Shown one piece after another: positions 7,467 through 12,901 of a stretch of 36,874 bases of DNA. How positions within the stretch are numbered: position 1 is the stretch's first letter; each line of letters starts with the position of its first letter. The notes beneath the pieces are model-generated. The model was not told where the DNA came from, ran no database searches, and saw only the letters and a program-made list of their open reading frames with translations. The translations under genes were made by a program, and so were the position numbers. This DNA is from Lawsonibacter sp. (lineage in GTDB: Bacteria; Bacillota; Clostridia; Oscillospirales; Oscillospiraceae): NCBI GenBank assembly GCA_022795855.1, contig JAAWHL010000018.1, positions 1 to 36,874 on the forward strand, given 5' to 3'.

Positions 7467-7495
7467 CTTATGCCGCGCACAAAAAAAGCCGATAG
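7467..7495 (+). promoter_or_regulatory. Possible sigma-D (flagellar) type promoter
   Basis: GCCGATAG at 7488-7495 matches the sigma-28/sigma-D -10 element (GCCGATAA/T in Bacillus flagellar genes) at seven of eight positions. Upstream the -35 position offers only CTTATGCC rather than TAAAGTTT, so the match is partial. It lies about 49 bp before the start codon of the flagellin-like gene, which is the reason to take it seriously. No better sigma-A promoter is visible in the 128-bp gap. Confidence 0.4.
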
Positions 7496-7543
7496 AATAG
7501 AATGGAAACCATTTTTATGCTTTGAGAGAGGGGGCGCCTGCAA

Positions 7544-10500
7544 GTGGGAGAGCTGACCATCCGCAGGAACAGGGAGAACGCCGTAAACCGGTATCAGGGG
7601 ACGGCCAAGGCGGAAAAGGCGGCCGCCGGGGCGCAGAGCCGGCCGGTGTCCGGCCAGATGGAAGCCGCGGCCCCGGAGACCCTCCGGCGGCGGACGGCGG
7701 AGGTGGACCAGACGGAGCGCCAGGTCCGGGAGAGCCTCCAGACCCTTCAGACAGGGGAGGCCGTACTGGATGAGGTGCAGGACTGCCTGGAGCGCATGGC
7801 CCGGCTGGCCGGCCGGGCCGCCGGCGAGACGGCGGAGGGCCGGGCCGCCCTCCAGGAGGAGCTGGACGGACTGCGGGAGGGGCTGGATCGGATTATCCGC
7901 AGCGCGGGCGCGCTGTTTTCAGACGAGGGCACCCTTGCGGGAGGCGGGCTGGAGGAGCTGCTGCGGACCTTGGACGGGGGAAGCGCCGCGCCCGAGGCGG
8001 TACAGGGCCTCCCCCGGTGGCTGCTGGACGGGATTGCCCTGAAGCGGCTCACTCCGGAGGAGCTGCTGGCCGCCCTTGGGCTGGACAAGAGCGCCAGCGG
8101 TGAGGAGATTCTGGCGGCGGTCACCGGGGGCGCTCTGGAGCGAAATCCCGCCGCAGGCTGTCTGGCCGCCCTGTACCTGGGGGCGGTGATTGCCGGGGGC
8201 GGGTCCGCCGGGTCCGCCGGCCTCCGGGAGGCGCTGGAGGGGCTGGGCCGGCTGCTGGAGCGGGTGGCGGACGGCGCTTCGCCGGATCAGGCGGTGGAGG
8301 AGCTGACCGAGGGGGCTTTCACCGGCCTGGACGACTTTCAGGCCCGGTTTACCGGAGGGACCGCCCCGGATCTGGAGGCCTTTCTCACAGCGCTGCTGCT
8401 GTCCGGCGGACAGGAGGCGCAGCAGGGGGACTCCCTCCTGGCCCTTCTGGCGGGGCTGGAGGGGATGGATCTGGAGCTGATGATGGACCTGTTCTCTCTC
8501 CTGTCCGGCGGGGAGGCCGGGCCGGAGGCGGAACTGCGGCAGGGCACAGCCGGGCCCGCGGCCGGAGGGCCGGCGGGAGAAGGGGCCGCGCCGCCCGCCG
8601 TTTTGCAGCTGGAGCAGGTGCGGGTGACGGCGCGCGACCTGTCCGGGATATCCTGGGAGGAAGGAACCCTGACCGTCAGGGGGGACGGGGATGCGGCCGT
8701 CCTGGGCCCCGAGGCGGGGCAGGGGAGCGGGACTCCGGCCCTGCGCGCCATTGTCATTGAGGGTACGGGTACTGTGCTCCTCCGGAACATAAGCGTGCCC
8801 GTCCTGACGGTGGAGGCCGGGGAAGCCCGGGTGGCTGCGGAAGGGGAAACCACGGTGGAGACCCTGGAGCTGAAGGAGGGGACGGCGCTCACCCTGGACG
8901 GCGGGGGAGTGGTGAGGCTGGGCGCGGTGCGCGCCGGCGCCTCCAGCCTCCTGCGTCTGGAGGGGGGCGCGGTGACGCTTCTGGACGGGGAGGGGGAGCT
9001 GGGAGAGCTGCCCCTTCCCGCAGTGGTGAGCGGGCCGGTCTCCCTGGCGGCCCGGGGGACCGCCGTCAGCGGAGCGAGGGGGGAGACGCTGCGGCCGGCG
9101 GACCTGCTTTGGCAGACGCTGCTCCCCGGCTGGCACAGCGTCACAGCCCTGGCGGCGAACGGCAGGGAGGGGAGGGTGCGCCTGCTGAACGGCAATCCCC
9201 CCGACCCCATCCGCCTGTGGCTGGACAGGGGGGCGATGACCCACGGGTACGCCCTGCACACCGTGATGCTCCGGGGCCGGGACGCGTTCGGCCGGCCCAG
9301 AACCCGGTACGCCTACCTCCACTGGAACCGGCATACCGAGACCTTCCAGGAGGTTTCCATGTACCCCAACCCCTTCACCGTCACCGGCGGAGAGGCGGGG
9401 CGGGACTGGGTCTATCAGGAGGAGTCCCACACCCTGCTGATTCTGTCCGCTCAGGTGACCGCCGTCTCGGGAGGGCCGGGCACGGACGCCAGCCGAAAGC
9501 CCTTCAGCGGGCGAATCGCCCTGGCTGACCGCCTGGGGGCCATTGAGCTGTCCCTGGGCGGCGTGGAGTGCCGGGTGTCCTCCGGCGGCGCGTTCCGCCT
9601 GGGCCGGGAGAACGACGTGACGCTGCTTCTGCCCGCCGGGACCAGCAGCCGGTTTGAGAGCGGCGCGGGGTACGCGGGAATCTCCCTGGGCAGCGGCACC
9701 ACGCTGACCATCGGCCGGGGGGCGCGGGGCGCGGCGGGAGAGCTGACCGCCTCCGGCGGCGAGGGCGGCGCGGGCATCGGCCGGGACAGCGGCGCGGGCC
9801 GGGACCAGAGCAGCCGCATTGTGATTCGCGGCGGTGTGATTACCGCCGCCGGGAGCGGCGGCGGCGCGGGCATCGGCGCGGGAAGGCGGGGGTTCATGGG
9901 GGCGATTGCCATTCTGGGCGGCACGGTCAGCGCCTCGGGCGGCGAGCGCGGCGGCGCGGGCATCGGCGGCGCGCTGGGCGCGCCGGCGGGGGATATCAGC
10001 ATCCGGGGCGGCTCGGTGACCGCCGTGGCCGCCCAGTACGCCGCCGCCATCGGCGCGGGCCTGCGGGGGGCGTGCGGCGATGTGGTGATTGACGGCAGCG
10101 CGCGGATTGTAAAAGCTCAGGGCGGCAGCCCCGGGGTGGAGATTGGGGCCTGCCTCTTTGGAAGCTGCGGGAAGGTGCAGATTTCCGGCAGCGCGGACCC
10201 GGACGGGAACCGGCAGGGGGTGCGCCCGCCGGCCTCCCTGCCGCTGGGGGGGTCTGCGGTGACCCTGCCCCGCCTTCCCCTGTCCGCCCGGACGCTGGGG
10301 CTGGGAGGGCTGAAGGTGTCCACCCCGGAGGAGGCCGGAACCGCCCAATCCGTTCTGGATACGGACCGCCGCTGGGTCGGCCGGCTCCAGATGTCCTGCC
10401 GGGCGCTGTACGGCAGGATGGAGCGGAGCGGGCTGTACAGCATCCGCCGGTATCTCCGCGAGACGGAGGAGCTGGTGCGGGACACCGCTCAGGCGGGCGC

Positions 10501-10600
10501 CCTGCTGGAGGATATGAGGCAGTCTATCCTGGCCTCATCCCGGGAGGCGCGCACCCACGGCCGGCGGGACGCGGAAAACGTGCGGCAGCTGCTGGAATGA
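7544..10600 (+). CDS. Flagellin-like protein with central beta-helix-type repeats
   Basis: A 1018-residue protein with an unusual layout. Residues about 60-118 (SLQTLQTGEAVLDEV ... CLERMARLAGRAAG ... LQEELDGLREGLDRI) follow the pattern of the flagellin N-terminal D0/D1 helix (QTAEGAL.EV..ILQRM.ELA.QA and RAALQ.EID.L..EIDRI). Residues 927-1018 mirror the flagellin C-terminal helices (AQSVLDT, then ETEELVRDTAQAGALLEDM, then QSIL and a final VRQLL). Between them are an Ala/Leu/Gly-rich helical part (120-340), a beta-rich part (345-700) and four to five Gly-rich repeats of about 30 residues at 720-870 built on GGAGIG ... IRGGxVTA, typical of beta-helical folds. The extreme N-terminal residues that pack the flagellin core are poorly conserved. 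GTG start at 7544 with GAGAGGGGG. Probably a flagellum-associated or surface structural protein; not a normal filament subunit. Confidence 0.7.
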   Translation: MGELTIRRNRENAVNRYQGTAKAEKAAAGAQSRPVSGQMEAAAPETLRRRTAEVDQTERQVRESLQTLQTGEAVLDEVQDCLERMARLAGRAAGETAEGRAALQEELDGLREGLDRIIRSAGALFSDEGTLAGGGLEELLRTLDGGSAAPEAVQGLPRWLLDGIALKRLTPEELLAALGLDKSASGEEILAAVTGGALERNPAAGCLAALYLGAVIAGGGSAGSAGLREALEGLGRLLERVADGASPDQAVEELTEGAFTGLDDFQARFTGGTAPDLEAFLTALLLSGGQEAQQGDSLLALLAGLEGMDLELMMDLFSLLSGGEAGPEAELRQGTAGPAAGGPAGEGAAPPAVLQLEQVRVTARDLSGISWEEGTLTVRGDGDAAVLGPEAGQGSGTPALRAIVIEGTGTVLLRNISVPVLTVEAGEARVAAEGETTVETLELKEGTALTLDGGGVVRLGAVRAGASSLLRLEGGAVTLLDGEGELGELPLPAVVSGPVSLAARGTAVSGARGETLRPADLLWQTLLPGWHSVTALAANGREGRVRLLNGNPPDPIRLWLDRGAMTHGYALHTVMLRGRDAFGRPRTRYAYLHWNRHTETFQEVSMYPNPFTVTGGEAGRDWVYQEESHTLLILSAQVTAVSGGPGTDASRKPFSGRIALADRLGAIELSLGGVECRVSSGGAFRLGRENDVTLLLPAGTSSRFESGAGYAGISLGSGTTLTIGRGARGAAGELTASGGEGGAGIGRDSGAGRDQSSRIVIRGGVITAAGSGGGAGIGAGRRGFMGAIAILGGTVSASGGERGGAGIGGALGAPAGDISIRGGSVTAVAAQYAAAIGAGLRGACGDVVIDGSARIVKAQGGSPGVEIGACLFGSCGKVQISGSADPDGNRQGVRPPASLPLGGSAVTLPRLPLSARTLGLGGLKVSTPEEAGTAQSVLDTDRRWVGRLQMSCRALYGRMERSGLYSIRRYLRETEELVRDTAQAGALLEDMRQSILASSREARTHGRRDAENVRQLLE
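9748..10170 (+). repeat. Gly-rich beta-helix repeat region within the flagellin-like gene
   Basis: Four to five in-frame units of roughly 85-95 bp encode variants of G-G-A-G-I-G followed by 15-18 residues and I-x-G-G-x-V-x-A. Unit starts are visible near 9760, 9860, 9950, 10040 and 10130. Conservation is at protein level with moderate nucleotide similarity (GGCGGCGCGGGCATCGGC recurs), so slippage or recombination between units is conceivable. Confidence 0.75.
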
Positions 10601-10608
10601 GCGCCTGC

Positions 10609-11333
10609 ATTCACAGCCTCATCCGGGCGTCCTTTTCGGTCGTGGACACGGGCGCTGAGCCTCTCACTCCGCCGCCCACTTGAGAAAGGTACGGTGGGTC
10701 ACGCCCAGACGCTGGGCCGCGCCTCTGGCGGACAGCCCGCCCCGCTTCCATTCGGCCCGAACCAGCTCGAAGGAGGAGGGCCGCTCCTTGGGCCTGCGCC
10801 CGAAGCGGACCCCCCGGGCCTGGGCCGCCGCGATTCCCTCCGCCTGCCGCTGGCGGATGAATTCCCGCTCGGTCTGGGCCACATAAGAGAGCAGCTGGAG
10901 CACAATGTCCGCAATCAGCGTGCCCGTCAGATCCCGGCCCTGTCTGGTGTCCAGCAGGGGCATGTCCAGCACGACAATGGAAATCTGCCGGTCCTTGGTC
11001 AGAACGCGCCACTGTTCCAGAATCTCGTCGTAGTTCCGGCCCAGCCGGTCGATGCTCTTGATGACCAGAGTGTCCTCCGGCTCCAGCCGCTTGAGAAGGC
11101 GCTGGTAGCCCGGGCGCTGAAAGTCTTTTCCGGACTGCCGGTCCGAGAAAATACAGCGGTCCGGGATTCCGAATTCCGCCATGGCCAGCCGCTGGCGGTC
11201 CTCATTCTGCTCCCGGGTGGATACGCGGATGTAGCCGTAAACTGTCTCTCCCATGGTAATCCTCCTGTGTCCGCGGTTCCCAAAAGACTGCGCCTGTGGG
11301 CAGAGATGATAAGGACCCATATTCACAGCCTCA
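10609..11333. mobile_element. 13-bp direct repeats framing the serine recombinase
   Basis: ATTCACAGCCTCA occurs at 10609-10621 and in the same orientation at 11321-11333, one copy just beyond each end of the recombinase gene. A chance 13-mer match between two such short flanks is improbable. The arrangement could mark an excisable cassette, recombination sites or an insertion duplication. No second mobility gene is present, so the mobile-element call is tentative. Confidence 0.4.
10664..11254 (-). CDS. Serine recombinase, resolvase/invertase family
   Basis: A 196-residue small serine recombinase. The N-terminal catalytic domain has YIRVSTREQNEDRQ with the nucleophilic Ser at about residue 11, and the active-site Arg motif KSIDRLGRN; the long E helix (QTEREFIRQRQAEGIAAA) precedes RGVRFGRRPKE, and a Hin/Tn3-resolvase-type helix-turn-helix finishes the protein (GLSARGAAQRLGVTHRTFLKW). 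Such proteins resolve cointegrates, invert DNA segments or move small elements. ATG 11254 is preceded by AGGAGG. It converges on the flagellin-like gene, 63 bp away, and follows the MATE gene on the same strand. The reading frame continues far upstream without a stop but that extension lies antisense or out of frame to the MATE gene and is not coding. Confidence 0.92.
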   Translation of the reverse strand: MGETVYGYIRVSTREQNEDRQRLAMAEFGIPDRCIFSDRQSGKDFQRPGYQRLLKRLEPEDTLVIKSIDRLGRNYDEILEQWRVLTKDRQISIVVLDMPLLDTRQGRDLTGTLIADIVLQLLSYVAQTEREFIRQRQAEGIAAAQARGVRFGRRPKERPSSFELVRAEWKRGGLSARGAAQRLGVTHRTFLKWAAE

Positions 11334-11427
11334 AACGCGCGGCAGGGCGGACCTTTGTCCGCTCTGCCGCGTTTCGTTTCCGGGAATATCCTGTGTGGGG
11401 CCTCAGCTGCGTCAGGGAACCGAAAGC

Positions 11428-12831
11428 CTACTGCCCCGAGGCGGCCCGGGCGGGCCGGGCCAGGGGGGCGGGCTGGGGGGTCTGGTCTGGGTAGAGCCGG
11501 CGGAGCCGTCCGATACACCAGGCGCTGGCGGGGATCAGGAACAGGTCGGCGCAGATCCACGCGGCGGGGGATGCGAAGCAGGCGGCGCTGTACCCCAGCA
11601 CAGGGACGAAGAACCGGCCCGCCGCAGTGCGGGCGGCCATCTCCAGCACGCCGGCCAGCACGGCAAAGGCGCCGAAGCCCATCCCCTGGATGGAGAAGCG
11701 CACAATATTCACCAGGGACAGGGGGAAGAAGAAGGCCGCGCCGGTGAGGACGTACTGTACGGTCAGGGCCTGGAGCTCCGCCAGACCGGGCTCGTTCCGG
11801 TCCAGGAAGAGCATGGCGCACTGGGGGGCGAAGAGGAGCATCGCGCCCAGGGCCAGCACCGAGTAGCCCGCCCCCAGGACGGAGCAGGCCCGGATTCCCC
11901 GGCCCAGGCGGTCCAGGCGGCAGGCCCCCACGTTCTGGCCGCAGTAGGTGGCCATGGCGGCCCCCATGGCGTCGAAGGGGCAGGCCAGCAGGTGGAAGAG
12001 CTTGGTCCCCGCCGCCACGGCGGCGATGCAGGCGCTGCCCAGGCCGTTGACGGCGGACTGGAGCACGATGGAGCCGATGGCCGTAATAGAGTACTGAAGC
12101 CCCATCGGCAGGCCCATGCCCAGCAGCACCCGGCAGGAGTGGAGGTCCGGCCGGCGCTCCTGGGGGGTCATGCGCAGGATGGGGAACTTTTTGGACATGT
12201 ACCAAAGGCAGGCCAGTCCGGACACCCCCTGGGAAATCACCGTGGCCAGGGCGGCCCCCGCCACCCCCGCCCGGAAGACGAGAATCAGGCACAGGTCCAG
12301 CAGGATGTTCAGGGCGGAGGACAGGCCCAGAAAGTACACCGGGGTTTTGCTGTCCCCCAGGGAGCGGATGATTCCCGCCAGCAGATTGTACAGGAAGGTG
12401 GTGGGGATGCCCAGGAAGATAATGAGGATGTAGCGGTAGGCGTCCTGAAAAATCTCCTCCGGGGTGTTCATCCACGTCAGGATGCTGCGGCACAGCAGTC
12501 CGGTGGCCGCGGTGAGAACCAGGGCCAGGGCGATGGACAGCCAGGCGGAGTTGGCCGCGTAGCGGCGCATTTTGGAGGGCTCTCCCGCCCCCATGCGCTG
12601 GGCCACCGGGATGGCAAAGCCGCTGCACACCCCCATGCAGAAGCCCAGTACAAAAAAGCTGATGGATCCGGTGGAACCCACCGCCGCCAGGGCGTTGGCC
12701 CCCAGCAGCTTGCCGACGATCATGGCGTCCACCAGGTTGTAAAACTGCTGAAACAGCATACCCAGCAGGGTGGGCAGGGTAAAGCCGGCGATCAGCCGGA
12801 GCGGGCTGCCCTGGGTGAGGTCTCGGGTCAT
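11428..12831 (-). CDS. MATE-family multidrug/sodium antiporter
   Basis: A 467-residue polytopic membrane protein of the MATE family, which exports cationic drugs or metabolites using a sodium or proton gradient. About twelve hydrophobic segments are seen, beginning LRLIAGFTLPTLLGMLFQQF and NLVDAMIVGKLLGANALAAV, the standard first-repeat signature; the second half repeats the pattern (GLPMGLQYSITAIGSIVLQS). Length is normal (440-470). ATG 12831 sits behind GAGGAGG. It has its own upstream promoter and no evident partner, apart from the same-strand recombinase gene 173 bp downstream. The substrate cannot be predicted from sequence. Confidence 0.93.
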   Translation of the reverse strand: MTRDLTQGSPLRLIAGFTLPTLLGMLFQQFYNLVDAMIVGKLLGANALAAVGSTGSISFFVLGFCMGVCSGFAIPVAQRMGAGEPSKMRRYAANSAWLSIALALVLTAATGLLCRSILTWMNTPEEIFQDAYRYILIIFLGIPTTFLYNLLAGIIRSLGDSKTPVYFLGLSSALNILLDLCLILVFRAGVAGAALATVISQGVSGLACLWYMSKKFPILRMTPQERRPDLHSCRVLLGMGLPMGLQYSITAIGSIVLQSAVNGLGSACIAAVAAGTKLFHLLACPFDAMGAAMATYCGQNVGACRLDRLGRGIRACSVLGAGYSVLALGAMLLFAPQCAMLFLDRNEPGLAELQALTVQYVLTGAAFFFPLSLVNIVRFSIQGMGFGAFAVLAGVLEMAARTAAGRFFVPVLGYSAACFASPAAWICADLFLIPASAWCIGRLRRLYPDQTPQPAPLARPARAASGQ

Positions 12832-12901
12832 GGCGGGTTCCTCCTCTATAAACCGTAAACAAAGGAAATTCTGACGGGGCTGCGCTGTGTACCGGCCCCA
12901 T

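Follow-up and report, generated by a model that had tools for sequence, protein, structure and literature searches.

What is the function of a protein whose two ends resemble flagellin and whose centre resembles a beta-helix? This question is raised by a gene in a 36,874-nucleotide stretch of Lawsonibacter sp. DNA (contig JAAWHL010000018.1 of assembly GCA_022795855.1, the whole stretch being referred to here as the window). Its open reading frame (ORF), 7544-10600 on the forward strand, has a GTG start and encodes 1018 amino acids plus stop. An initial annotation had read the product as a beta-helix between flagellin-derived ends, and had offered as options a beta-helix displayed on a flagellum-like filament, a surface protein with a borrowed flagellin export signal, or a cap. 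Our data indicate that the gene belongs to a real, conserved, flagellum-linked protein family, with an orthologous frame in 79 of 79 loci examined (counting the window's own locus, duplicates of one contig from two sources, and some loci cut by contig ends). What is new in the family is the combination of features known separately, namely those of secreted flagellins, of flagellins with functional inserts, and of Cthe_2159-like beta-helices. We recognized no published description of such a flagellin-derived beta-helix family in a literature search that reached mostly openly readable papers, and these in part. We propose that a flagellin paralogue was repurposed as a carrier that would be expressed from a sigma-28 promoter, leave the cell by flagellar export, build no ordinary filament and present a glycan-binding beta-helix, a reading to which we give an even chance.

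We found that both ends of the protein are homologous to flagellin. At the N-terminal end, PF00669 (Flagellin_N) matches residues 43-120 of the window protein with 31.3 bits (cut-off 26.6) and matches 17 of 17 aligned orthologues at E-values up to 10 (best 7.9e-12), and the profile match lies far above its controls. At the C-terminal end, a profile of residues 915-1018 compared with a profile of 23 flagellin C-ends scored 80.8 with a probability of 98.3, whereas 30 column shuffles reached at most 17.7 and the reversed profile 8.4. Furthermore, the family profile matched both flagellin ends among Protein Data Bank (PDB) sequences (9hpz, E 3.3e-25), the C-end to its last residue. In the predicted model, the N- and C-terminal helices pair as in the flagellin D1 bundle. 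Hence neither of the outcomes that the initial annotation had named as fatal to its view, absent flagellin hits or unpaired ends, occurred. Its placement of the flagellin patterns at residues 60-118 and 927-1018 was right in location and too narrow in extent, the flagellin-like spans being 37-126 and 915-1018. These comprise D1-N (residues 37-126, positions 7652..7921; this and all further features of the protein lie on the forward strand), identified by PF00669, profile comparison and PDB hits and with helices 45-94 and 97-120 in the model; D1-C (residues 915-978, 10286..10477), identified by profile comparison, model and PDB profile hits; and a diverged D0-C (residues 979-1018, 10478..10597), identified by profile and PDB hits and modelled with low confidence in parts. 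Three Acutalibacter-type members (L074, L079, L084) carry extra residues (..MINR) after the flagellin-like C-terminus.

The extreme N-terminus differs from that of flagellins. A helical D0-N was not found there; in its place stands an N-segment (residues 1-36, 7544..7651) that is conserved (consensus MGELxIRRNRxxAxPRYQxxxKTEK, pairwise identity 0.43 over residues 1-40) and predicted to be disordered, the model having a predicted local distance difference test score (pLDDT) below 50 over residues 1-44. Proline occurs in the N-segment of 45 of 55 members, compared to 1 of 14 flagellins, and the profile-profile match of the family to flagellin starts only at residue 37. One PDB alignment runs weakly and colinearly into the N-segment, from profile position 8, and for this reason the segment may be what is left of a decayed D0-N and not a new addition. 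The claim that the D0 extremities are degraded fits D0-N and not D0-C, which is diverged yet colinear with flagellin to its end. Hydropathy gave no Sec-like N-terminus in any of the 55 members, and none contains an LPxTG motif.

Conservation along the protein is reversed relative to flagellins: the middle is kept as well as the ends, and residues 601-750 better. Mean pairwise identities among the 55 sequences, with gaps ignored and with gaps as mismatches, were 0.43 and 0.42 for the N-segment, 0.53 and 0.52 for D1-N, 0.50 and 0.43 for the helical domain described below, 0.20 and 0.16 for the linker (residues 323-350), 0.46 and 0.45 for beta-1, 0.67 and 0.65 for residues 601-750, 0.68 (where present) and 0.37 for the repeats, 0.45 and 0.43 for D1-C, and 0.44 and 0.41 for D0-C; the whole middle (residues 123-905) reached 0.46 with gaps counted. 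Eleven full-length true flagellins of the order, a sample that differs from the family in size and breadth, gave 0.80 for D0-N, 0.73 for D1-N, 0.61 for D1-C and 0.82 for D0-C with gaps counted, and 0.17 for the middle (0.25 with gaps ignored). In the 13 closest pairs (dS below 0.35), which stem from four clusters only, dN/dS was 0.10-0.16 in 12 and 0.56 in one; more distant pairs among those listed of 1267 had higher values, up to about 0.8 over the whole protein.

The centre of the protein is predicted to fold as a right-handed beta-helix resembling Cthe_2159 (residues 607-889, 9362..10210), which upholds the initial view of the middle. Fold statements here rest on a VIA second look at Foldseek rows, a procedure blind to anything that Foldseek ranked too low. 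Within the beta-helix, GAGIG-type turns occupy residues 742-869 (9767..10150), as judged from motif positions and Beta_helix_3 (PF18889), which matches 27 of 37 members at E-values up to 10 in a Pfam search that listed three families; the window protein is below its cut-off. Of the four to five GGAGIG-type repeats originally claimed, three are exact GAGIG (residues 742, 774 and 804), and the other two turns are diverged (AAIG at 834, VEIG at 865). Since GAGIG is present in 40 of 55 members, the repeats are the dispensable part. A helical inserted domain is predicted at residues 135-322 (7946..8509); none of the listed fold-comparison rows covers it, which says nothing on its novelty. Residues 130-612 gave 7 matches against the PDB, all to a single histone acetyltransferase, with E-values of 0.88 and above, and we do not consider these credible.

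We found that the gene is preceded by a promoter-like box, TTAT-N16-GCCGATA (7468..7494, forward strand), close to what we take to be the sigma-28 consensus. TTAT-N15/16-GCCGATA occurs in 37 of 54 non-duplicate upstream stretches (mean 0.0 in single-base shuffles). Allowing GACGATA, a box of the form TTAW-N14-17-GMCGATA precedes 50 of 55 members (mean 0.013 in shuffles, likewise single-base), a wider pattern that was fitted on the same upstream sequences. Across both strands of 54 loci (1.43 Mb) there are 50 box matches in total, and in 49 of these loci a match lies no more than 120 nucleotides before the gene; the members without a box are L029, L069, L070, L071 and L088, with near-matches in three. 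In the own genome of the window, a looser pattern (TTAT-N15-17-CCGATA) gave five sites, compared to two for the backwards control. Three of the five are promoter-like and lie before a chemoreceptor-like gene, the flagellin-derived gene and a flagellin (labels by eye); the other two sit where no promoter is apparent. In six relatives the looser box also stands before a FlgM-like gene (L133, label by eye), other matches lying inside open frames. The assignment to sigma-28 is based on the consensus together with these box-preceded genes, and at the level of sequence it is consistent with a sigma-28 regulon, a FliA-type sigma factor being encoded in the same genome above cut-off, as are FlhA and FliS.

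Several further observations concern the box. The GACGATA variant stands before 14 members (L045, L049-L051, L053, L055, L057, L062, L068, L074, L077, L079, L083 and L084), all of which fall in one 17-row clade of the tree, as if the preference of the sigma factor had shifted. A flagellin of the own genome (L002 / L094, contig C109) has the same kind of box approximately 300 nucleotides ahead of its start codon, which suggests a long 5' leader. A small uncharacterised conserved protein (MMxEAREKAE; L131, L140, L141) is encoded downstream of the box in three of the six relatives, which makes it another candidate for the flagellar regulon.

The family occurs in many genomes, and its distribution follows that of the flagellar exporter, a point that the initial annotation had proposed to check. 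Matches occur somewhere in 31 of 60 genomes of relatives, counting cross-hits to ordinary flagellins and repeats. By our own count, the orthologue is present in 16 of 36 genomes of the genus, one per genome, and these are 16 of 21 FlhA-positive compared to 0 of 15 FlhA-negative genomes (Fisher p 3.2e-6, with no correction for kinship or incomplete genomes). One genome (G010), for example, has flagellin matches and no FlhA match. The own genome contains five further Flagellin_N places over cut-off. Two peptide patterns applied across a genome collection yielded 62 loci under titles such as Lawsonibacter, Oscillibacter, Oscillospiraceae, Clostridia, Firmicutes and plain 'bacterium'. The carriers include Flintibacter muris, Pseudoflavonifractor sp. 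60, Neglectibacter sp. X58, Acutalibacter sp. 1XD8-36 and Colidextribacter sp. OB.20, and presumably most of them come from animal guts.

From these computed features (the family, the homology of its ends, the loss of a recognisable D0-N, the predicted fold, the promoter-like box, the co-occurrence with FlhA and the inverted conservation) we infer sigma-28 transcription, the export route, non-polymerisation, glycan binding and the fate of the protein. The gene would have a sigma-28-type promoter of its own and be transcribed together with the late flagellar genes. D1-N, D1-C and D0-C, the regions through which flagellin meets FliS and FlhA, would then allow handover to the flagellar type III exporter, and release could follow through or at the flagellum. 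With D0-N lost, an ordinary filament would probably not be built, and outside the cell the conserved beta-helix would be presented, most likely binding polysaccharide (plant cell wall or mucus glycan). In the Bacillus subtilis flagellin-FliS complex the first 45 flagellin residues are disordered and FliS holds D0-C and D1, FlhA contacts D1-N, D1-C and D0-C, and the FliW contacts include residues 11-34 (PMC6070490). By this comparison, the window protein keeps what export appears to require, one of the two D0 strands being lost. Taken with the box, with the co-occurrence of FlhA and with an N-terminus that does not look Sec-like, this makes flagellar export that does not lead to ordinary polymerisation the simplest reading. 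Among the options first offered, a surface protein with a borrowed flagellin export signal fits best; display on a flagellum-like filament is compatible with the data, but an ordinary subunit would not be expected to lack D0-N.

Several observations weigh against this proposal. The gene is missing from 5 of the 21 FlhA-positive genomes. A single-sequence match to PF00700 (Flagellin_C) was seen neither among the Pfam matches of the window protein, nor at the place of the gene in its own genome, nor among 25 of 36 families listed for the 17 aligned orthologues. The hydrophobicity of D0-C is lower than that of its flagellin counterparts (mean Kyte-Doolittle hydropathy -0.50 compared to 0.03), which could weaken FliS binding, and the flagellin residues 11-34 contacted by FliW lie in the part lost here. 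Disorder of residues 1-44 alone proves little, because monomeric flagellin also has disordered ends, which are critical for its polymerisation (PMC8306008). The proposed ligand rests on the predicted fold, since the beta-helix sequence has 0 matches to PDB chains, PF14262 is not among the Pfam matches listed for the window protein, the 17 orthologues or the 37 beta-helix members, and the Foldseek E-values for Cthe_2159 (0.65 and 1.1) are not significant, neither predicted model having given any E-value below 0.001. In the six relatives the box has 28 matches compared to 17 for the backwards pattern (5 compared to 8 in one genome), so that the box is meaningful only by position. Finally, the proposal does not account for a hydrophobic stretch inside the helical domain (residues 203-221, nucleotides 8150-8206); it is the 19-residue Kyte-Doolittle maximum of the protein (1.54), and maxima above 1.6 occur somewhere in 22 of 55 members.

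The alternative that survives best is a minor flagellar part, present in few copies in the filament, at the hook-filament junction or at the tip through D1, with the beta-helix serving as an on-flagellum adhesin; we consider this rather unlikely. D1 is intact in sequence and model, the carrier genomes of the genus were counted with a single orthologue each, and the box precedes most family members. The case also draws on a giant flagellin frame in another genome of the genus (G028; L162:410-5194, reverse strand, 1595 codons, 1579 amino acids from the likely ATG), a genome that has the orthologue as well. It has complete flagellin ends (approximately 50-60% identity of residues ~15-155 and 1464-1594 to ordinary flagellins of the genus) and an insert approximately 30% identical to residues 125-884 of the window protein, so that a complete, filament-type flagellin can accommodate an insert of this kind. 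In the family studied here, however, the alignment of the profile to flagellin does not begin before residue 37 and the ends diverge more than flagellin ends do. Furthermore, the FlgL model TIGR02550 scores 15.8 of 127.2 bits, far below cut-off, and FlgK is not among the matches listed for the window protein in the same search. The cap suggested at the outset found no support, FliD domains being absent from the matches of the window protein at E-values up to 10 and from 25 of the 36 families listed for the 17 orthologues; with FlgL weak as well, we rejected a cap or junction protein.

The G028 frame is the sole such case among the matches listed from 64 genus genomes. It is a possible intermediate by its sequence; as an ancestor it was not upheld, since its insert forms a lone long branch (2.8) of unsure placement in the tree. 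Approximately 430 nucleotides upstream of the likely start of this frame lies a box of the same type, followed by a small frame that contains cysteines (L144).

It is improbable that the protein is simply a giant flagellin of the ordinary kind, with a long variable domain that by chance folds as a beta-helix. Size would permit this: flagellins of more than 1000 amino acids occur in many phyla, and two giant-flagellin species form thick filaments (PMC6248924). The genus itself has flagellin frames of 1056 and 1069 amino acids, and the weak PDB alignment into the N-segment would fit as well. Indeed, the claim that the protein is about three times normal flagellin length failed, as flagellin frames of relatives range from 279 to 1069 amino acids (contig-end fragments left out) and of the flagellins of the own genome one measures 757, while two that are truncated at contig ends have at least 530 and 863. 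However, giant flagellins share with the family their length and a large insert between flagellin ends, whereas the family has no recognisable D0-N, a better conserved middle (0.46 compared to 0.17 in local flagellins, gaps counted) and less conserved ends (0.41-0.52 compared to 0.61-0.82).

A cytoplasmic regulator that uses its retained flagellin ends to titrate FliS or FliW is very improbable. In its favour, the protein keeps the FliS- and FlhA-contacting regions and part of the FliW-contacting ones of B. subtilis flagellin (PMC6070490), but a large conserved beta-helix is hard to explain inside the cell, and similar repeats occur in other proteins from this order whose N-termini look like Sec-type signals (L158, L160 and L161, by eye). 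That a coiled-coil protein resembles flagellin by chance has a negligible likelihood and was rejected, as both ends far exceed the column-shuffled and reversed profiles and align with flagellin in the correct order, as far as the final residue.

We compared the exported carrier proposed here with known systems. To our knowledge, neither FlaC of Campylobacter nor the cell-surface flagellin of Sphingomonas A1 has a beta-helix insert (a large one in the case of FlaC), and Cthe_2159 is not part of a flagellin. The PDB entries 2zbi and 3k8v, titled bacterial cell-surface flagellin, match D1 of the model; we take them to be the Sphingomonas A1 protein and to bind alginate. FlaC is a flagellin homologue that leaves the cell by way of the flagellar exporter and is dispensable for motility (PMC4863622), a precedent for a secreted flagellin. 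Like the present family it keeps D1; unlike FlaC, which is from another phylum, the present family has a diverged D0-C and no recognisable D0-N. Flagellinolysin also has a functional domain inserted in the flagellin middle (PMC5595980), but it assembles into filaments, and we rejected it as an identity for this family, HExxH occurring in 0 of 55 members and NF033876 scoring 13.3 of 205 bits. Cthe_2159 (PF14262) is a polysaccharide-lyase-like beta-helix of C. thermocellum to which a sequence-level match of the window protein was not found; domains of its type bind cellulose and polygalacturonic acid (PMC6712302).

As a tentative possibility, this D0-N-less family may be a flagellar-exported, glycan-binding effector, its lectin-like beta-helix diffusible or flagellum-tethered, and a host may read the same molecule via D1, since D1 is kept with most Toll-like receptor 5 (TLR5) hot-spot residues. 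The hot spot of B. subtilis flagellin consists of R89, L93 and E114, and D0 also contributes to activity (PMC5247705). In a by-eye alignment through the D1 helices, the counterparts in the window protein are R84 (kept in 50 of 55 members), L88 (53 of 55) and E106 (43 of 55). Because of the contribution of D0, TLR5 activity is not predictable from these residues. If the carrier reading is true, flagellated commensal-type Clostridia use the flagellar exporter beyond the filament, with a conserved cargo domain, and the family is a natural case of flagellin released from the constraint of polymerisation. It would then open to cultured relatives the questions of which parts of flagellin suffice for export, which glycan the beta-helix binds and whether a host senses such a flagellin.

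The surroundings of the gene are not flagellar. A purine-rich stretch resembling a ribosome-binding site (7524..7534, forward strand), read from the sequence, lies 5' of the GTG start. Around the gene are alaS, a PhzF-like gene, a SUV3-type helicase, a resolvase, a MATE pump, ComEC, DNA polymerase III delta and glycolysis genes, and the gene stands alone in the window, as none of the 20 window ORFs scanned matched a flagellar family. We rejected a conserved neighbourhood: when the longest frames up to 2.5 kb away were clustered, no cluster held more than 5 of 51 downstream or 4 of 50 upstream, and window neighbours were rarely seen near orthologues (alaS at 3 of 62 loci, the helicase at 4 of 62, ComEC and the resolvase at 1 each, four others at 0). 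Since the neighbours are not conserved, the box travels with the gene. Downstream, a long frame on the reverse strand (10664-12901) that overlaps the MATE pump region carries a Pfam Resolvase domain and is possibly the edge of a mobile element.

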